Below the pieces are notes generated by a model, which had not been told where the DNA came from, searched no databases, and saw nothing but the letters and a program-made list of their open reading frames with translations. A program made the translations under genes and the position numbers. DNA of 64,000 bases from Elusimicrobiota bacterium (GTDB lineage: Bacteria > Elusimicrobiota > Endomicrobiia > Endomicrobiales > Endomicrobiaceae), in assembly GCA_017525905.1 (NCBI GenBank), contig JAFXSD010000024.1, forward strand, positions 124,001 to 188,000, read 5' to 3'. Of the stretch, positions 44,812-53,729 are shown one piece after another. Within the stretch, counting starts at the first letter, position 1, and every line of letters begins with the position of its first letter.

Positions 44812-45312
44812 ATGCTAAAAAACAATAAAGGGCAGGCATTTGCGGAAGCAATTTTTATATTCCCGATAATAATTGTTTTAATTTTTTCCGTTATTTGGTT
44901 TGCAAGAGTTCTTTTAACATGGCAACAATTAATTTCAGCAACAAGATATGGAACAGATATGATAACAAACACTAATTTATCTTCTGCCGACATAAAGAAA
45001 GATATTGAAAATTATTTAACAAACAAAATGATAGAAGGCAGAAGATTGGATATAGATAAAATAAAAGAAATAAATGTTGATATTAAAGATTATGAATCAC
45101 CAAATTATAATCTTACCGACTTATCAAAAATATCAAATTTTGTTCAAGGATTGTTTATTCCATCGGCTGAACTTTCTACAGTATCAATAGTATATTCGTA
45201 TGAATTACCTAAAATAATGAATTTTGTTGGTATGGATGAATTTATAATAAAAACAAAGCTTTCTGTTTTGGCAGGTAGCGGTTGTAAAAATAATATTCAT
45301 AAAAGAAAATAA
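44812..45312 (+). CDS. TadE-like pilus protein
   Basis: 166 residues with the leader MLKNNKG and then QAFAEAIFIFPIIIVLIFSVIW, the TadE/TadF pattern (Gly before the cut, Glu at +5, one TM helix). The rest is an extracytoplasmic domain. TadE-type minor pilins are processed like Flp and are needed for pilus assembly. It starts three bases after serS and shares the NNKGQ leader with the Flp gene that follows. Confidence 0.82.
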   Translation: MLKNNKGQAFAEAIFIFPIIIVLIFSVIWFARVLLTWQQLISATRYGTDMITNTNLSSADIKKDIENYLTNKMIEGRRLDIDKIKEINVDIKDYESPNYNLTDLSKISNFVQGLFIPSAELSTVSIVYSYELPKIMNFVGMDEFIIKTKLSVLAGSGCKNNIHKRK

Positions 45313-45493: not shown

Positions 45494-46327
45494 ATGAAAA
45501 AAAACATTTTATTTGTTGCTGTATTGGCTTTTCTTTCTGCTGTTTTTGCAACATTGTATTTGTATGATATCGGACAGCAAAACAAAAGTATGTCTGAAAC
45601 AGTTACAGTTATTGTTGCAAATCAACAAATAGAACAAGGCAAACTTATAACAAGTTCTATGGTAAAAGAAAAAGCAGTTCCCAAACAATATGTGCAACCT
45701 AAATTTATATCCGATACAAAAAATCTTTATGTTGACGGTAATCCTGTTTATATGGCCATCGTTACTCTTGAAGAAGGGGAACAAATTACATCTTCGAAAA
45801 TCTCATCTTTAACATCCGGTTTTGGCTTGGCAAATACGATACCTACAAATAAAAAGGCAATAACTCTTCTTTTTAATAATCAAGAGGTAAACGGTATTAT
45901 ATCTTCCGGAAGCAAAGTAGATTTAATATCAATAGTAGAATATGAAAATAAAAATCAAAGATATGAAGAAGCTTCTTGTGTGGTGGCACAAAATCTTTTG
46001 GTTTTGGCTGTAGGTAACGATGTTATAGGTTCTGCCAAAAATACAAAAGAAGATGTTGCAGTTACTGTATCAATTCCCGTAACTTTGTCAGTTTCTTTGG
46101 AAGAAGCTCAGAAAATAATTTTGGCTGAAGAAAAAGGAATATTAAAAATAGTTTTAAGACCTACATCCGATGATACAATTCAAAAAAGTAAAATAATAAA
46201 AATAAATGATATTTACGAATCTGCTGTTGCAAATACCAAAACACAATCCACGAGACAATCTTCCTTGGAAATGCAAAAAAGGCAAAAAGAATTAAATGAA
46301 ATTATAAGTAAATATTCTCAAAAATAA
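45494..46327 (+). CDS. cpaB: CpaB/RcpC-like Flp pilus assembly protein
   Basis: 277 residues. An N-terminal TM helix (4-24) is followed by a SAF-type domain (VTVIVANQQIEQGKLITSSM and the following VPKQY), then the RcpC/CpaB domain (AITLLFNNQEVNGIISSGSKV, VALTVS-like strand) and a charged C-terminus. CpaB sits in the periplasm between the inner-membrane motor and the outer-membrane secretin. One-base overlap with the next gene (TAATG). Confidence 0.87.
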   Translation: MKKNILFVAVLAFLSAVFATLYLYDIGQQNKSMSETVTVIVANQQIEQGKLITSSMVKEKAVPKQYVQPKFISDTKNLYVDGNPVYMAIVTLEEGEQITSSKISSLTSGFGLANTIPTNKKAITLLFNNQEVNGIISSGSKVDLISIVEYENKNQRYEEASCVVAQNLLVLAVGNDVIGSAKNTKEDVAVTVSIPVTLSVSLEEAQKIILAEEKGILKIVLRPTSDDTIQKSKIIKINDIYESAVANTKTQSTRQSSLEMQKRQKELNEIISKYSQK

Positions 46328-48213
46328 TGAAAAAATCAAAAGTAATATCAATTTTACAAACCGGAAATTCAACATTTACAAACTCTTTGGTAAGAGGCCT
46401 TGTCACACAAAATACTTATAATAATAAAAAAAGCATTGTTGTAGATTTAAGGCTTAACAGTTATTTAGTTTGGCATTATTACGGGAAAAAAGAAATAAAA
46501 TATTTTGAAGATATTTTGAACATAGTTTTAAATGGTAATTCTTCAATGTTGAAATCTTATTTGGATGATAAAAATGCCATTGTTTCCGTTAAAGATATAA
46601 CAAAATTATCACTTGATAATTTTAATACAATAATGAAGTCTCTATCTGAAATTTATGACGATATATTCGTTATTGTTGATCAAAATAAAACTTTATATAA
46701 ATTTATTTCTGTATCGGATATATTGTTATGTGTATTGGAAAAAGAACCTGTTTGTTTGGCAAATTACCAACAAATATATTCCGATATAATAAGCACTGCA
46801 AATAATATTACGATTATTCCAATAATATTTAGAACGGATATAAATTTTAATATAGATGAAACAGAAAATAAATTTATTCCAAAAGATTCTGTTTTTATAA
46901 ATTTCGATTCATCAACAGAAAAAGAAATTGCAGATAAAAATTTTATGTTTAACGACAACAATAATACTTTTGTCGAGAAAATAAAAAATATTGCAAATGA
47001 AATTTATGATCAAACTTCTAATTTTTCAGATAGTTCCATAACAATAAATTCAAACAAGTATCTTGTTCTGAAAGAGAAATTACACAAAGATTTAGTTGAA
47101 AAAATGAAAGAATATTCTTATGAACAAGATAAAAAAATACTGACATCTGTCATTAAAGTAAAAGTAGGGGAACTTCTTTCAATATATGAGATAAAGTTAA
47201 AAAATGATGTATATGCAAAACTTTGTAAAGAATTAACGGATGATATTGTTGGACTTGGAATACTTGAAGATTTATTGGCAGATGAATCTGTTACCGAGAT
47301 AATGGTGAATGGTTGTAACAATATTTATGTTGAAAAAAACGGGAAAATAGAAGAAACTGAAATAAAATTTTCAGATATTGAAAAATTAAAAATCGTTATA
47401 AACAGAATTGTTGCCCCAATAGGCAGACATGTTGACGAATCATCTCCAATAGTTGACGCAAGACTAAAAGATGGTTCAAGAGTAAATGTTGTTATTTCAC
47501 CTATATCATTATGCGGTCCGATACTTACAATAAGAAAATTTGCTAAAAATAAATTGTCCGGGCAGGAACTTATAAATTATGGCTCATTAAACTTGGAAAT
47601 GTTGGAATTTTTGAGATTCGCTGTTTTAAACAAAAAAAATATTTTAATTTCTGGCGGAACAGGTTCCGGTAAAACGACATTGCTGAATGTCCTTTCTTCT
47701 TTTATAGATTCAAGAGAAAGAATTATTACTATTGAAGATTCTGCGGAATTACAACTTCAACAAGAACATGTTATAAAACTTGAATCAAGACCTAAATCGT
47801 TGGAAGGTACATCAGAAATTACAATCAGACAACTCGTTATAAATTCTTTAAGAATGAGGCCGGACAGAATTATTGTAGGTGAATGTAGAGCAGGTGAAAC
47901 TTTAGATATGTTGCAAGCCATGAATACCGGACATAGCGGTTCTATGACAACCGTACATTCAAATTCGTGTACTGATGCAATTTCGAGATTGGTTGTAATG
48001 TCTTTGATGGCAGGTTTCGACTTGCCGGAACAGTCTATAATTTCAATGATTGTATCGGCAATAGATATTATTGTTCAAATTAAAAGATGTTCGGATGGTT
48101 CAAGAAAAATATCCGAAATTTCTTATCTTGAGAAAGATGAGAAAAAAAGTTATAAATTAGTTCCGATTTTTATTTATAATGAGCAAAATAATATTTTTAT
48201 AAAAAATATATGA
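46327..48213 (+). CDS. cpaF: CpaF/TadA pilus ATPase with a degenerate CpaE/TadZ-like N-terminus
   Basis: 628 residues, about 200 more than usual for CpaF. The C-terminal 380 are a type II/IV secretion ATPase: LLADESVTEIMVNG, RIVAPIGRHVDESSPIVDAR, Walker A GGTGSGKTT at about 443-451, ITIEDSAELQL (Asp box), RMRPDRIIVGECR (Walker B) and TGHSGSMTTVHSNS (His box). The first 240 look like a ParA/CpaE fold without a P-loop: KVISILQTGNSTFTNSLVRG, SIVVDLRLNS and DDIFVIVDQNK. This suggests a fused, non-catalytic TadZ-type localisation domain. It powers Flp pilus assembly. Confidence 0.9.
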   Translation: MKKSKVISILQTGNSTFTNSLVRGLVTQNTYNNKKSIVVDLRLNSYLVWHYYGKKEIKYFEDILNIVLNGNSSMLKSYLDDKNAIVSVKDITKLSLDNFNTIMKSLSEIYDDIFVIVDQNKTLYKFISVSDILLCVLEKEPVCLANYQQIYSDIISTANNITIIPIIFRTDINFNIDETENKFIPKDSVFINFDSSTEKEIADKNFMFNDNNNTFVEKIKNIANEIYDQTSNFSDSSITINSNKYLVLKEKLHKDLVEKMKEYSYEQDKKILTSVIKVKVGELLSIYEIKLKNDVYAKLCKELTDDIVGLGILEDLLADESVTEIMVNGCNNIYVEKNGKIEETEIKFSDIEKLKIVINRIVAPIGRHVDESSPIVDARLKDGSRVNVVISPISLCGPILTIRKFAKNKLSGQELINYGSLNLEMLEFLRFAVLNKKNILISGGTGSGKTTLLNVLSSFIDSRERIITIEDSAELQLQQEHVIKLESRPKSLEGTSEITIRQLVINSLRMRPDRIIVGECRAGETLDMLQAMNTGHSGSMTTVHSNSCTDAISRLVVMSLMAGFDLPEQSIISMIVSAIDIIVQIKRCSDGSRKISEISYLEKDEKKSYKLVPIFIYNEQNNIFIKNI

Positions 48214-49016
48214 TAACAAACATTATTTGTCTTTTACTTTTCTTAATAACATTTTTTTTGTTTGTTTTTTGTTTTATAAAACTATTTAAAAATAAAAAAT
48301 TTGTAATTGCCACCACAAAAAATAATCATACTCAAAACAAAAAAATGAAAATTTTATTAGTTATACTTGCATTTATTTTAATATCATTTTTGTTGAATAT
48401 AATATATGCATTTATATTAACGATATTTTTTGTATATGTTATATGGCTTTTTTCTGAAAACAAGAAACAAAAAAATAAAAAAGAAACCGATAAACAAATA
48501 TTGGAAGTAATAAGATTGTTCAAAAATTCTGTCTCTTCCGGAGAAAATATAGTTCAGGCAATAGATACTGTGTCTCAGCAGATAAAAGAACCATTATCTT
48601 CGGAATTTAAAAAAATATTAGAAAAAATTAAGTTGGGTATAAGTTTGGATGAAGCACTGGAGGATTCAGTAAAAACAATTAATAACGAACAGTATAAATT
48701 TTTTATGGACACTTTAAGAATTTCTCATTCTACCGGTATCAAGATATCCGATATACTTTCAAAAATAGAAGAATCGGTTACTCAAAAACTTTATTTGTCA
48801 AATAAAGTTGATGTTTTAACTTCTCAAGTAAGGTTTTCAGGTATAGTTATAAGTATAGTTCCTTTTTTTATATTGATTTTAATTTATTTTGTCGAACCGG
48901 AAATTGTATCGATATTATTTTCTTCAATTTTAGGTAACGTTGTTTTACTTGTTTGTGTAATTATGATTATTTCCGGCTCGTTTATAATGAAAAAAATTGC
49001 GGATATAAAATTATGA
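48210..49016 (+). CDS. tadB: TadB-like pilus platform protein
   Basis: 268 residues with two N-terminal TM helices, a cytosolic T2SSF domain (about 95-215; EVIRLFKNSVSSGENIVQAI, LGISLDEALE, DTLRISHSTGIKISDIL) and two C-terminal TM helices. This is the TadB half of the inner-membrane platform that works with CpaF. It overlaps the CpaF stop and the TadC start by four bases each. Confidence 0.88.
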   Translation: MITNIICLLLFLITFFLFVFCFIKLFKNKKFVIATTKNNHTQNKKMKILLVILAFILISFLLNIIYAFILTIFFVYVIWLFSENKKQKNKKETDKQILEVIRLFKNSVSSGENIVQAIDTVSQQIKEPLSSEFKKILEKIKLGISLDEALEDSVKTINNEQYKFFMDTLRISHSTGIKISDILSKIEESVTQKLYLSNKVDVLTSQVRFSGIVISIVPFFILILIYFVEPEIVSILFSSILGNVVLLVCVIMIISGSFIMKKIADIKL

Positions 49017-49897
49017 TATATTTAATATTAACATTTACATTTTTATTTGCCTTTATTTTTATATTTTTGGTTGTTGTGTTAAATTTCGTATCGGAATTTT
49101 TTGCAAAACAAAATTTTTATGGAATTACCGACAAGCATAAAAATATATTTCTTGTATATTTAATAAAATTTTCCGAAATTTTTACGCCTATAATAAAAAA
49201 TATTGAATTCAAGATATTTGTTGATTATCTTAATAAAGTCGATCAAATGTTAAAAACTTTTAATTTTAATTCCGTAAAAATAAATTCGTATAACTTTGTT
49301 TTTATACAAATAATATCAATGATTATAGGTTCTTGCATATCTTTATTTATTTTCGGTTTTGATTTTTTATTTATGATTTGTTTTGGACTTCTTTTTTTAA
49401 TATTGCCGTACTTAAAAATATACGAGCAATATAATAAAAAAATAAATGAAATAGTAAAACAAATTCCGGATGTTGCAAATTTGCTCGCAATACTTGTTTA
49501 TTCCGGAATAGATTTTAATAATTCCGTAAACAAAATAACAGTGTTATTGGACGGAACATTAATAAACGAGTTAAAAGATGTACTGAAGAAAATAGTTTTG
49601 GGAATAGATACAAAAGTAGCATTTAAAGAAATGGCTGAAAGGTATAATATAGTTCAGTTGGATAGTTTTGTTAAAACAATAACCATGTCTTTGGATATAG
49701 GCACGGGGCTTACTGAAGGTTTAACAAAAATAGCTAAGCAAATATCGGATGATAATGTTGCAATTGCTGAAAAAAAAGCACATGAAGCACCGGTAAAAAT
49801 GTTATTACCTATGACGATTTTGATATTGCCGACAATCTTTATTTTGCTGTTTGCTCCGTTTGTGATATCTTTTTTTAAGTCAGGTTCACTGTTTTAA
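49013..49897 (+). CDS. tadC: TadC-like pilus platform protein
   Basis: 294 residues from the ATG that overlaps the tadB stop (ATGA); an upstream in-frame ATG at 48953 lies well inside tadB and is rejected. N-terminal TM helix, a TM pair near 105-150, a T2SSF domain (QIPDVANLLAILVYSGIDFN, LGIDTKVAFKEMAERYN, MSLDIGTGLTEGL) and a C-terminal TM. Partner of TadB. Confidence 0.88.
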   Translation: MIYLILTFTFLFAFIFIFLVVVLNFVSEFFAKQNFYGITDKHKNIFLVYLIKFSEIFTPIIKNIEFKIFVDYLNKVDQMLKTFNFNSVKINSYNFVFIQIISMIIGSCISLFIFGFDFLFMICFGLLFLILPYLKIYEQYNKKINEIVKQIPDVANLLAILVYSGIDFNNSVNKITVLLDGTLINELKDVLKKIVLGIDTKVAFKEMAERYNIVQLDSFVKTITMSLDIGTGLTEGLTKIAKQISDDNVAIAEKKAHEAPVKMLLPMTILILPTIFILLFAPFVISFFKSGSLF

Positions 49898-49949: not shown

Positions 49950-51134
49950 ATGAAAATTGTTGTTGTAGGAAGTGGGTATGTAGGTTTATCTATTTCCGCA
50001 TTACTTGCGCAAAATAATGAAGTTGTGGCGGTTGATATAATTAAAGATAAAGTAGAGAAAATAAATAAAAGGATATCTCCTATTATCGATGAAGGAATTG
50101 AAGAACTTTTTAAAAATAAAAATTTAAATTTGGTTGCTACAACAGATGCAAAGAAGGCATACGAAAAAGCCGATTTTGTTGTTATAGCAACACCTACTAA
50201 CTATGATGAAAAAAAGAAATTTTTTGATACTTCTTCAGTAGAATCGGTAATAAAACAAGTAATTGAAATAAACCCTAAAGCTTATATAGTCATAAAATCT
50301 ACAATGCCCATCGGATTTACAAAGAAACTAAAAGAACAATTTTCTACAGAAAATATTTTGTTTAGTCCTGAATTTTTAAGAGAAAGCAAAGCTCTTTACG
50401 ATAATTTGTATCCTACCAGAATAATATTAGGTGCTTCGTTAAATTCTAAAGAATCTGTCGAAAAAGCAAACGAATTTGCAAGTTTGTTGGTTCATGGAGC
50501 AAAAAAAGAAAATATTGAAATTCAAATAATGGAAACGGATGAAGCGGAAGCTGTAAAATTGTTTTCAAATACATACTTAGCATTAAGAGTTTCTTTTTTT
50601 AATGAACTTGATAATTTTGCATCAGTTTACGGATTAAATGCCGGAAGAATTATTAAAGGGATTTGTGCGGATCCGAGGATAGGGAATTATTATAACAATC
50701 CGTCTTTTGGATATGGCGGTTATTGCTTACCAAAAGATACAAAGCAATTACTCAGAAATTATAAAAATATTCCACAAAATTTAATTTCCGCGATAATCGA
50801 TTCAAATAAAACAAGGCAAGATTTTATTGCGGAACAAATTCTTTCCCGTAGACCGAAAACCGTAGGTGTTTATCGCTTAATAATTAAAAAGAATTCTGAC
50901 AACTTTAGGCAAAGTGCAATTCAAGGAATTATAAGAAGATTAAAAACAAAAAATGTTGAAGTTGTAATATATGAACCTATATTAAAAGATAAAATGTTCT
51001 TGGATAGTGTCGTTATAAAGAACATAAATACTTTTAAAAAAGTGTCAGATATTATAGTAGCAAACAGATATGATAAAGTTTTGGAAAATGTAAAACAAAA
51101 AGTTTATACTCGTGATGTTTTTTTGAGAGATTGA
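49950..51134 (+). CDS. ugd: UDP-glucose/GDP-mannose dehydrogenase family protein (UDP-glucose 6-dehydrogenase-like)
   Basis: 394 residues: Rossmann motif VVVGSGYVGLSISALLAQNN, VIATPTNYDEKKKFFDTSSV, KSTMPIGFTKKL, FSPEFLRESKALYDNLYPTR, and the catalytic Cys in FGYGGYCLPKDTKQL. The C-terminal UDP-binding domain has RLIIKKNSDNFRQSAIQGII. It oxidises a UDP-sugar to its uronic acid for surface polysaccharide. It is oddly placed between Tad and PilM genes. A TATAAT at 49915-49920 could give it its own promoter. Confidence 0.9.
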   Translation: MKIVVVGSGYVGLSISALLAQNNEVVAVDIIKDKVEKINKRISPIIDEGIEELFKNKNLNLVATTDAKKAYEKADFVVIATPTNYDEKKKFFDTSSVESVIKQVIEINPKAYIVIKSTMPIGFTKKLKEQFSTENILFSPEFLRESKALYDNLYPTRIILGASLNSKESVEKANEFASLLVHGAKKENIEIQIMETDEAEAVKLFSNTYLALRVSFFNELDNFASVYGLNAGRIIKGICADPRIGNYYNNPSFGYGGYCLPKDTKQLLRNYKNIPQNLISAIIDSNKTRQDFIAEQILSRRPKTVGVYRLIIKKNSDNFRQSAIQGIIRRLKTKNVEVVIYEPILKDKMFLDSVVIKNINTFKKVSDIIVANRYDKVLENVKQKVYTRDVFLRD

Positions 51135-51208
51135 AAATTTTTATGACACAAAACAGTTAAAAATTTTGGGTTACCATAAGTTATATAAATTAAAAGCCGG
51201 AGGATATC

Positions 51209-52216
51209 TTGATAGGCATCGACTTAGGCAGTAAATTTATAAAAATATGTAAAATTGTAAATTCAGGGAACAAGAAAAAAGAACATTCCGTTATTTCTGC
51301 CGCCTTAGATATATCAAATGTTCCGGAAAAAGAAAAAGCAAATAAACTTTTATCTGTATTAAATAAATTATCCTGTTTGGACGAATCCGTTTATTTGGCT
51401 GTTGGCGGCAAAGATATAATCAACAGAAATATATCCTTAAAAAGAAATAAAGATATAAAATTAGAAGAACAGATCGCAAATGAAGCTGCCGGTACCATCT
51501 CGGAAGATTTGAGAAAGATGTACACTTCTTTTGTCGTATTAAAAAACGATTCTGAAAAAGATTACAATGTTATTTTTTCCGCAGCTCCAATTGATAAAAT
51601 TAATAAAAAATTTGTTTTTATAAATTCAATTAAAACGATGTCGGTTGCGGGGGTTACTTCGGAAGATTTTGCTTTGACAAATGCTTTTAATGAGTTCGGT
51701 CCAAAATACAAAAATACTGAAAATATTGTTTTAATAAATATAGGTCATAAAGTATCGAATATTGTAGTTTTAAAAAATACTGATTTGGTTTTTGTTAATG
51801 ATGCTGACTTCGGCGGGCAGAATATAACGAAAGATATTGCGACTTTTTTTTCTGTTCCTGAAAAGTTATCGGAAGAAATAAAGAGAAGAGAAGATTTAAG
51901 ACAAGCAATCAATTTTAACATGAAAAATATTTTAAAAAAGAATGTTATTGTTTTGGCGGAAAATATCTTTAAAACGATAGAACATTGTAAAACGAAACAA
52001 TTGGTTGATTCAATAGACAGAATTGTTCTTACCGGCGGGGGAGCTTTAACTGATGGTATAGATAATTTTATTCAAGATACATTGGGAATACCTACTGAAA
52101 AATGGAACCCGTTGAGTAATAATGAGTTTGTCGGATATGTTGATAAAGATAAGGGCTTTTATTTGCCGATTGCACTTGGTTTGGCGCTTGAAAAGGAGAA
52201 AAAAGCAAATGTATAA
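51209..52216 (+). CDS. pilM: PilM-like pilus assembly protein
   Basis: 335 residues with the actin-like ATPase fold of PilM: IGIDLGSKFIKICKIV (phosphate 1), NIVLINIGHKVSNIVVLKN (phosphate 2), ADFGGQNITKDIATFF and IVLTGGGALTDGIDNFI (adenosine motif). It starts at TTG 51209 with CGGAGG at optimal spacing. PilM binds the cytoplasmic tail of PilN, the next gene, which overlaps by eight bases. Confidence 0.87.
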   Translation: MIGIDLGSKFIKICKIVNSGNKKKEHSVISAALDISNVPEKEKANKLLSVLNKLSCLDESVYLAVGGKDIINRNISLKRNKDIKLEEQIANEAAGTISEDLRKMYTSFVVLKNDSEKDYNVIFSAAPIDKINKKFVFINSIKTMSVAGVTSEDFALTNAFNEFGPKYKNTENIVLINIGHKVSNIVVLKNTDLVFVNDADFGGQNITKDIATFFSVPEKLSEEIKRREDLRQAINFNMKNILKKNVIVLAENIFKTIEHCKTKQLVDSIDRIVLTGGGALTDGIDNFIQDTLGIPTEKWNPLSNNEFVGYVDKDKGFYLPIALGLALEKEKKANV

Positions 52217-52787
52217 CTTTAATTATGTTGAAGAAGTTATTACAAAAGAAAAAAATAAAAGCATTTTTTTAAGGCTCATAAAAATATTAAATTTAATTGT
52301 TCATATCGGAATAATTGTTATTATCTTGCTTGCTGTATCAAAATCTTCGGAAATTGATAACTGTAACAAAAAGATAGATGAAATAAAAAATAATATTGAG
52401 AAAAAAAGAACAATAAATCGAATTCCGGAAACAGAAAAAGAATGGGAGAGCAGGTATTATAAATTATTGGCAGCAAAAGAACAATTAGAAAATAGGACAT
52501 ATTACAGTTCGGTATTAAAAGACCTTGGATCCTTTTTACCCGAAGGAGATTCTATTATTAATCTTTCAATAGAGGGAAATAGTGCAAAGATTGATTTACA
52601 TGTAAGTGGAGAAGAAATAAAAAGTTTAGAGAACTATTCCGATCAAGCTTCTGTTTTAAACTCTTATTTTGAAAAAAGTGAGTATATAAATAATAAGTTT
52701 GTAATAGAAACGACTGAAAAATACGAGATAAACAACAAAGAAGTAAATGCAGTAAAATTAAAAGTGGATTTAAAAAATAAACAATAA
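52209..52787 (+). CDS. pilN: PilN-like protein
   Basis: 192 residues from ATG 52209 (GGAG at 52195-52198). The N-terminus MYNFNYVEE resembles the PilM-binding NLLP-type tail, followed by a TM helix (about 27-47), a coiled coil and a small alpha/beta periplasmic domain (LKDLGSFLPEGDSIINLSIE). The call rests on layout and position between PilM and PilO. Confidence 0.75.
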   Translation: MYNFNYVEEVITKEKNKSIFLRLIKILNLIVHIGIIVIILLAVSKSSEIDNCNKKIDEIKNNIEKKRTINRIPETEKEWESRYYKLLAAKEQLENRTYYSSVLKDLGSFLPEGDSIINLSIEGNSAKIDLHVSGEEIKSLENYSDQASVLNSYFEKSEYINNKFVIETTEKYEINNKEVNAVKLKVDLKNKQ

Positions 52788-52805
52788 AAAAGGAAAATAT
52801 AATTT

Positions 52806-53729
52806 ATGAGACAAAGCAAAAGATTGTTAAAATTTATATTGATTTTTGTATTTTCCGTTTTCGTTGCCTGTTTGGTATACGCTTTCATTTATTCAAAATA
52901 CAGTAAAGAATATAATGAAAAGGAAAAAATATATGAAAAATTTTATGATATAAACATTCAATTGGATGACTTTAACAGTATGCAGATAAAAATGGATGAG
53001 TTGAATGTTTCTTTGAGTGAAATCTATTATGCTTATGAAGATACATTTTATCCTAACGAACAAAATGTGAATTCATATAAAACTAAAATTTTAAATTTAT
53101 TAAAGGAAACAGAGATTCCGATTAATGATGAAGATTCTGTAATTCAAGAAACTAAAAATAATACGGTTGAAATAACTTTAAAACTGAAAACCTCTTATCA
53201 AAAAATTTGTAAATTTTTGTTTGAATTGGAAAGATATTCCGAAGTTTTATCGTTGAAAATGAATTATGAGGGTAATATTGAAATAAAAGTAATGCCGATA
53301 TTATTTTCTCCCGAAATAAATGATAATTTTAGCAAAGGCAGCACAGTTGATTTCATAAAAGATGATGTTCGTAAAGCCGGATATTTTAAAGAAATATCAG
53401 ATAAAATGGATAAGGAAAAAGATGTGGATTATATACAGGAATGGATGGATTTTGAGCCAATACCGCCTTCTCCCTTTTATTATTATGTTTCAAAAGAAAT
53501 AGTAAAAGAAAACAGCAGTGTGCCGACTACTGCACAACCTAAAGTTACAAAACCTAAAATAGGTATAGACGGTATAATGTACGATAAACAAAACCCTATG
53601 GTTATAATAGGAGGTAAATTTTATTACATAGGTGATGTGTATAAAAATTCTAAAATTGTTCAAATAAACAAGGATAATATAAAAGTTAAACATCAAGGGA
53701 CATTATTTACAATAAAGATAGGGAAATAA
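52806..53729 (+). CDS. PilO-like protein with PilP-like C-terminal domain
   Basis: 307 residues. N-terminal TM helix (10-30), coiled coil (about 35-80), a ferredoxin-like PilO domain (TYSYQKI-type region KTSYQKICKFLFELERYSE), a linker rich in Pro/Thr, then a final 60-residue beta domain: GIDGIMYDKQNPMVIIGGKF, then YIGDVYKNSKIVQINKDNIK. That last part fits the PilP/GspC HR domain, which contacts the secretin. So PilO and PilP functions may be fused here. No secretin gene is in the window. Confidence 0.72.
   Translation: MRQSKRLLKFILIFVFSVFVACLVYAFIYSKYSKEYNEKEKIYEKFYDINIQLDDFNSMQIKMDELNVSLSEIYYAYEDTFYPNEQNVNSYKTKILNLLKETEIPINDEDSVIQETKNNTVEITLKLKTSYQKICKFLFELERYSEVLSLKMNYEGNIEIKVMPILFSPEINDNFSKGSTVDFIKDDVRKAGYFKEISDKMDKEKDVDYIQEWMDFEPIPPSPFYYYVSKEIVKENSSVPTTAQPKVTKPKIGIDGIMYDKQNPMVIIGGKFYYIGDVYKNSKIVQINKDNIKVKHQGTLFTIKIGK

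Follow-up and report, generated by a model that had tools for sequence, protein, structure and literature searches.

How does the motor of a Tad pilus come to carry, at its N-terminus, a domain that resembles the proteins that position such motors? The Tad pilus is a sticky surface fibre built by the CpaF/TadA motor. The question arises in the draft genome of a gut bacterium of the Endomicrobiaceae (Elusimicrobiota; assembly of 2.03 Mb in 127 contigs, 97.8% complete, 7.4% contamination), of which we analysed a window of 64,000 nucleotides (positions 124001-188000 of contig JAFXSD010000024.1). A tad operon in this window has the order tadE (44812), cpaB (45494), a 628-aa open reading frame (ORF; 46327-48213), tadB (48210) and tadC. 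The first-pass annotation read the 628-aa ORF as CpaF fused to a degenerate CpaE/TadZ-like domain. We argue below that this ORF is a CpaF motor, that the extra domain is of the CpaE/TadZ lineage as judged from predicted fold and profiles, and that the domain probably serves as a permanently attached positioning or scaffold module that works without nucleotide, six to a hexamer, a role that we infer.

A CpaF motor with an additional N-terminal domain

The 628-aa ORF is a CpaF/TadA motor, having a T2SSE/VirB11-type ATPase core, an intact Walker A, a three-helix bundle and a Tad operon context. Its parts, in window coordinates, are as follows.

46327-48213, + strand: fused cpaF ORF, 628 aa, ATG start
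46327..47013, + strand: predicted ParA/MinD-fold domain of CpaE/TadZ lineage, residues 1-229, no REC, nucleotide-binding motifs lost (AlphaFold2, fold searches, CpaE/Soj profile comparison)
46357..46386, + strand: QTGNSTFTNS, residues 11-20, at the deviant Walker A place (alignment with relatives retaining the P-loop)
46444..46446, + strand: Asp40, at the Walker A'/switch I position (present in 44/44 Endomicrobiaceae N-domains despite P-loop loss)
47014..47052, + strand: linker, residues 230-242, fast-evolving and of low confidence (predicted local distance difference test, pLDDT, <50 at 230-243 and 229-236 in the two models)
47053..47247, + strand: CpaF three-helix bundle (NTD1), residues 243-307 (predicted helices 243-263, 269-286 and 293-307)
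47248..48213, + strand: CpaF N-terminal and C-terminal ATPase domains (PF00437, E 1.2e-61, residues 310-593; CpaF structures)
47653-47676, + strand: intact ordinary Walker A GGTGSGKT, residues 443-450 (sequence)

The CpaF entries 8rkd and 9e24 of the PDB align to residues 270-602 with E 1e-99. The residues ahead of the core are thus indeed extra, as annotated, since matches to CpaF structures begin only at about residue 270. The interval first assigned to the extra domain (46327-47100) covers the ParA-like part and needs trimming at its end, where it also includes the linker (230-242) and the first part of the three-helix bundle (243-307). TIGR03819 is the top NCBIfam match of the fused protein, although its score (304.4 bits) lies below the curated cut-off of 373.15; four fused relatives scanned against this model likewise fall below, at 319.9-341.5 bits.

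Residues 1-229 are predicted to adopt a ParA/MinD (SIMIBI) fold. The AlphaFold2 model of residues 1-243, made with seven relatives (L034-L040, 19-57% identical), has a pLDDT of 79 and a predicted template-modelling score (pTM) of 0.82, with low confidence at 230-243. The motifs first pointed out, QTGNSTFTNS (11-20), VVDLRLNS (38-45) and IFVIVDQN (113-120), lie where they were placed, and strands are predicted at 5-10, 36-43 and 112-117. A Foldseek search of the PDB with the model gave 114 matches at E <=0.001, ParA, FlhG and MinD structures foremost; the best was 3ea0 (ParA family; E 2e-6, TM 0.71), and rank 31 was 3fkq of E. rectale (TM 0.64), reported as a TadZ by Xu et al. 2012. VIA gave MinD 3r9j (Z 19.7, 217 residues, 3.1 A) and 3ea0 (Z 19.2, 222 residues); 3fkq is not among the 50 VIA matches listed, despite its Foldseek rank. 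The ParA/MinD-type fold proposed from the sequence is therefore borne out by the structure prediction. No REC domain precedes it in the AlphaFold2 model, in which the first strand of the ParA fold begins at residue 5, and among the Pfam families listed for the fused protein no FHA domain was matched. A full-length model shows the ParA-like part, the linker and then the three-helix bundle (243-307), with a pTM of 0.48 that makes the relative placement of the domains untrustworthy.

Lineage of the domain and spread of the fusion

The window's sequence alone is silent on its family, so the CpaE assignment is drawn from the predicted fold together with the profiles of its relatives. The profile sets comprised 44 Endomicrobiaceae N-terminal domains (N-domains; the window's included), 13 from elsewhere in the class Endomicrobiia, 34 separate CpaE-type proteins, 12 fused proteins from other phyla and 15 Soj proteins. 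Left out of the 44 and the 13 were G041 (L163, frame broken upstream), G007 (L014, contig end) and G012 (short CpaF only). The 34 separate CpaE were picked by script on three features alone, as ORFs of >200 aa at <=4 kb from cpaF with a [KR]GGxGx[ST] motif. Labels given here without a family accession (Soj, ParB, Wzc-like, Mrp, CooC-like, FHA, TadG-like, pilC-like) were assigned by eye.

In hhalign comparisons the Endomicrobiaceae N-domains matched the separate CpaE at 95.4% (E 1.9e-8) and Soj at 20% (E 0.0011). They matched the 13 class N-domains at 98.6% (E 9.8e-16) and the 12 fused proteins of other phyla at 90.5% (E 1.4e-6), with controls (REC, CpaF core, reversed) at <=0.24%. The profile of the class N-domains preferred CpaE (2e-42) to Soj (3.2e-15), as did that of the fused N-domains of other phyla (6.6e-47 vs 1.8e-19). 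Taken singly, 39/44 Endomicrobiaceae, 13/13 class and 12/12 other fused N-domains have a higher bit score with the CpaE than with the Soj profile. At E <1e-3 a hidden Markov model (HMM) of the class N-domains found 40/44 Endomicrobiaceae N-domains (not the window's), 32/34 CpaE, 12/12 fused proteins and one of three controls (Soj, at 1.1e-12 vs 5.4e-49 for the best CpaE); the Endomicrobiaceae HMM found 12/13 class N-domains and none of three controls (Soj 3.9). By these profile comparisons the N-domain belongs to the CpaE/TadZ lineage rather than to that of Soj, which agrees with the degenerate CpaE/TadZ-like domain first proposed.

Several results weigh against this assignment. Residues 1-245 by themselves gave a best Pfam match of 0.74 (an RNA helicase model), none in NCBIfam and a best of 1.3 among PDB sequences (a ribosomal protein), and the Endomicrobiaceae profile A1 had no match among PDB sequences at E up to 10. 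Against the separate-CpaE profile the window's domain reached E 520, or 2.9 bits (Soj profile -0.5), and against the HMM of its class relatives E 0.02. At E <1e-3 the Endomicrobiaceae HMM found only 10/34 separate CpaE (median 0.55) and 2/12 fused proteins of other phyla, and a full-length HMM of separate CpaE found only 3/44 Endomicrobiaceae N-domains. The best of those ten (L059, 3.3e-8) is a separate CpaE with a P-loop that lies directly ahead of a short CpaF. The N-domain tree is poorly resolved, with long branches, and in it Soj falls next to certain actinobacterial CpaE. The lack of a significant match for the window's sequence, and of a PDB match for profile A1, is what one would expect if the likeness were a chance one and the domain an unrelated Rossmann-like fold. 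We regard this as very improbable, given a fold match to 3ea0 that runs the full length of the domain (222 residues, Z 19.2) and a graded series of relatives that leads up to a P-loop.

The fusion is old, common in Elusimicrobiota and present in other phyla, a wider spread than the first-pass annotation had seen. That it might be unique to the window's genome was considered and rejected on the evidence of other loci. Among 80 CpaF loci whose N-termini were read, seven are Endomicrobiaceae fusions, and the other 73 include 12 ParA fusions and four FHA fusions; another 11 long frames, lying upstream of actinobacterial-type cpaF, were excluded, having no ATG or a first ATG near the core. Outside the phylum fusions occur in Bdellovibrionota, WOR-3 and two Bacillota loci, in the order ParA, linker, three-helix bundle, CpaF; the start codon is uncertain in several Bdellovibrio-type loci, where the first ATG is 3' of the P-loop. 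With the fused protein of G011 as query, 234/294 Elusimicrobiota genomes match at E <=1e-60, any CpaF being counted, and among the matches listed more than half run through query residues 2-732 as a single open frame, with starts at 2-4. Within the class a CpaF match at E <=1e-60 is found in 60/95 genomes (38/46 good ones) and is missing in many small genomes of one Endomicrobiaceae genus (g3). A tree of 82 of the 171 usable CpaF cores (174 pooled) groups 26 CpaF without an N-domain, as judged by length, with the two Bacillota fusions (support 88), while the remaining ParA-fused forms and the FHA forms stand apart. The Bacillota fusions may hence be of separate origin.

The first-pass annotation noted no separate tadZ in the operon. 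None was found in or near the tad locus or elsewhere in the draft genome with AAA_31 and profile A2: the three AAA_31 matches look by eye like Soj (next to ParB), a tyrosine kinase of Wzc type and Mrp, and profile A2 of fused N-domains hits two places at E <=1e-10, the fusion and Soj. The reading of 20 chosen ParA-type loci of relatives gave no separate CpaE elsewhere in the class, and within that scope the idea was rejected. Fourteen of the loci have a Soj-type frame with QKGGVGKTTT and 10/20 a ParB-like ORF; L213 and L218 resemble tyrosine kinases, L214-L217 hold ParA proteins of other kinds or CooC-like ones, and at none of the 20 does a CpaE with REC adjoin tad genes.

In four relatives from the Endomicrobiia (G091, G093, G087 and G012) there is a short CpaF, in frames of 352-418 aa, that has neither the three-helix bundle nor an N-domain.

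L141:4509-5567: short CpaF
L148:13888-15111: short CpaF
L154:3990-5063: short CpaF
L144:2753-4009, - strand: short CpaF of G012

On the core tree the short copies have diverged, and in three loci (L141, L148 and L144) they adjoin a putative short secretin. In G091 and G093 the short and the fused CpaF share a contig stretch, so that the Tad loci there appear to hold two motors; in G087 the short CpaF is on another contig. The C-terminus of the G012 copy runs into a pilin-like hydrophobic segment, with a TGA within the match, possibly through overlapping genes or a frameshift.

Loss of the P-loop in a domain under selection

What is special to this class is the loss of the P-loop, the fusion itself being wider. 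In the combined alignment the deviant Walker A is absent from 44/44 Endomicrobiaceae N-domains and from 12/13 of the other families of the class (56/57), the sole member with the signature among those aligned being G011 (L143; KGGCGQT). Fused proteins elsewhere retain it: 12/12 read from other phyla have KGGVGK[ST], or KGGVG[AS]T in two from WOR-3, and 19/19 read from Elusimicrobiota outside the class have KGGVGQT, K[DE]GVGKT or QAGVGKT. The latter sample consists of the best-scoring fused proteins of the phylum (29 of 30 loci read, L196 having no ORF), of which 19 are from outside the class. The P-loops of the separate CpaE are uninformative, because these sequences were selected by that motif. 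On the core tree the degenerate forms make up one side of a branch (support 74). The poorly resolved N-domain tree groups the Endomicrobiaceae with 6/13 other class members (support 99), and the P-loop-less L145-L149 and L136 fall apart from this group. The P-loop may have been lost once, or two or more times.

Two side observations concern fused relatives. Among other Elusimicrobiota (L185-L200) there is a fused set that keeps the P-loop lysine but has K[DE]GVGKTS and an altered switch I (e.g., LPLDPMC); the ParA-like domain has thus drifted in a second way. The fused protein of G011 has, at residues ~95-118, an inserted proline/arginine-rich peptide, TPPSPTRGEACPERSRRNKGEG, which resembles a palindromic repeat in translation.

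Two residues stand out by their conservation. D40, at the Walker A' place, and W49, a lineage-specific tryptophan, are each kept in 44/44 Endomicrobiaceae N-domains. This conservation, and a Soj encoded in the same genome, could be explained if Asp40 and Trp49 let the domain bind nucleotide, or Soj as a partner ParA, in a non-canonical way. Such binding is improbable in our view: the window's domain keeps neither a glycine-rich loop nor a lysine at the P-loop place, and nothing was found that connects Soj to the pilus.

Is the domain merely left over from an old fusion, retained since its loss would need an in-frame cut? The loss of the P-loop from 56/57 class N-domains would fit such a history, as would a rate of amino-acid-changing substitution that exceeds the core's by a factor of about two to five. 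Ratios of nonsynonymous to synonymous rates (dN/dS) were compared by region in seven members of the genus. Between G009 and G010 they are 0.065/0.66 (~0.10) in the ParA domain, 0.031/0.55 (0.06) in the CpaF core and 0.307/0.57 (0.54) in the linker; between the window and G001 the ParA domain has 0.260/1.13. Several pairs have near-saturated dS, so that only the closer pairs are trustworthy. In several pairs the linker has dN near or above dS. The ParA-like domain is under purifying selection, with dN/dS well below 1 while the neighbouring linker drifts, and is therefore not debris; its fold is still predicted (pTM 0.82), and D40 and W49 persist in 44/44. A vestige is accordingly an unlikely explanation.

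The proposed role, the locus and known systems

Models of the Caulobacter motor suggest what the domain may do. An in situ model fits six CpaE dimers as a ring round the CpaF hexamer; the ring touches the CpaF base in the piliated state, REC domains likely join the dimers, and AlphaFold3 predicts a contact between CpaE and CpaF (PMC13170226). The placement of CpaE in that study comes from predicted models fitted into density. By analogy, the fused domain would localise or scaffold the motor, "fixing the localiser to the motor" as the first-pass annotation put it. Each CpaF hexamer would carry six ParA-like domains on flexible linkers ahead of its three-helix bundles, and these would replace the ring of separate CpaE, the hexamer itself doing the ring-building attributed elsewhere to REC domains. 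As the P-loop is missing, no ATP-driven dimerisation cycle is expected, and the domain would serve as a static scaffold, anchoring the motor or placing it next to the platform in the inner membrane. The stoichiometry speaks against this proposal: the fusion would supply six domains without REC, and the published ring counts twelve CpaE, with REC, to each motor (PMC13170226).

The domain could instead regulate the motor, tuning its cycle of extension and retraction in the manner of the disordered N-terminal stretch of CpaF in Caulobacter, or of FlaH acting on FlaI in the archaellum. Caulobacter CpaF is described with a 79-residue disordered N-terminus ahead of its three-helix bundle (PMC11300603, PMC12019362), truncation of which lowers both extension and retraction (PMC12019362), and the ParA-like domain occupies this very place, just before the bundle. 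CpaE and TadZ are, however, described as positioning proteins (PMC6668835, PMC11300603, PMC13170226), and we consider a regulator a genuine possibility of rather less than even standing. We retain the positioning or scaffold module as the probable role. Whether the fusion amounts to a fourth CpaF architecture, with the CpaE ring covalently built in at six per hexamer, and in Endomicrobiia with no nucleotide cycle, such that positioning needs the CpaE fold and neither an ATP switch nor REC, we propose only tentatively.

The fusion bears on how CpaE/TadZ acts on the Tad motor, since it opens the physical connection of positioner and motor to direct test. Its natural occurrence, common in one phylum and present in three other groups, is independent evidence that CpaE and CpaF work in contact, and it sets their ratio at one to one. 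The absence of P-loop and REC from a domain that is kept is a natural experiment showing which parts of CpaE are dispensable.

The remaining genes of the operon are as follows.

44812..45312, + strand: TadE-like minor pilin gene (PF07811, E 2.7e-8, over cut-off)
45494..46327, + strand: cpaB/rcpC, periplasmic Tad protein (TIGR03177, E 7e-35, over cut-off)
48210..49016, + strand: tadB platform protein (PF00482, E 4.1e-16)
49013..49897, + strand: tadC platform protein (PF00482, E 3.2e-9; inner ATG taken, the listed ORF beginning with TTG at 48953)

The cpaB stop and the fused cpaF start share one base (TAATG), and the fused cpaF overlaps the tadB start by four bases. A secretin gene (PF00263) lies on another contig (C64), adjoining putative tadE/tadG-type genes (labelled by eye). 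At 49950-53729 the window has pilM (PF11104) and two genes positioned like pilN/pilO. No pilB, pilT or pilC-type gene was found in the genome, where the T2SSE cut-off is passed by CpaF only and that of T2SSF by TadB and TadC only. In a relative (L034) pilB-like and pilC-like ORFs follow a dehydrogenase-like gene; in the window pilM comes directly after such a gene.

How does the fusion compare with known systems? Many Tad systems occur in Elusimicrobia (PMC6668835), and the listing of the tad operon of B. bacteriovorus names no TadZ (PMC5430801). A search of the literature on CpaE-CpaF fusion and on Tad in Elusimicrobia or Bdellovibrio found no report of the fusion, most subscription journals and protein-database annotations lying outside its reach. 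The 292 CpaF orthologues sorted into classes I-III have no N-terminal extra, an intrinsically disordered region (IDR), or an IDR and FHA (PMC12019362); the main text of that paper does not contain the terms MinD, Elusimicrobi, Bdellovibrio or fused. The protein described here shares with these classes the three-helix bundle, the N-terminal domain, the ATPase core and the cpaB/tadB/tadC operon. Its N-terminal extra is of ParA/MinD fold and CpaE type, not IDR or FHA, and it thus falls outside the three classes as that paper sets them out.

With CpaE/TadZ it shares the predicted ParA/MinD fold, the lineage at the level of profiles and the machine; it differs in being fused to CpaF, in having no REC and, throughout the class except G011, in having no deviant Walker A. 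The fused CpaE-CpaF of Bdellovibrionota, WOR-3, Bacillota and other Elusimicrobiota have the same domain order but retain the P-loop signature. In the archaellum, FlaH on FlaI is likewise a second ATPase-fold protein acting directly on a type-IV-filament motor, although FlaH is a separate protein of RecA/KaiC type and not of ParA fold.

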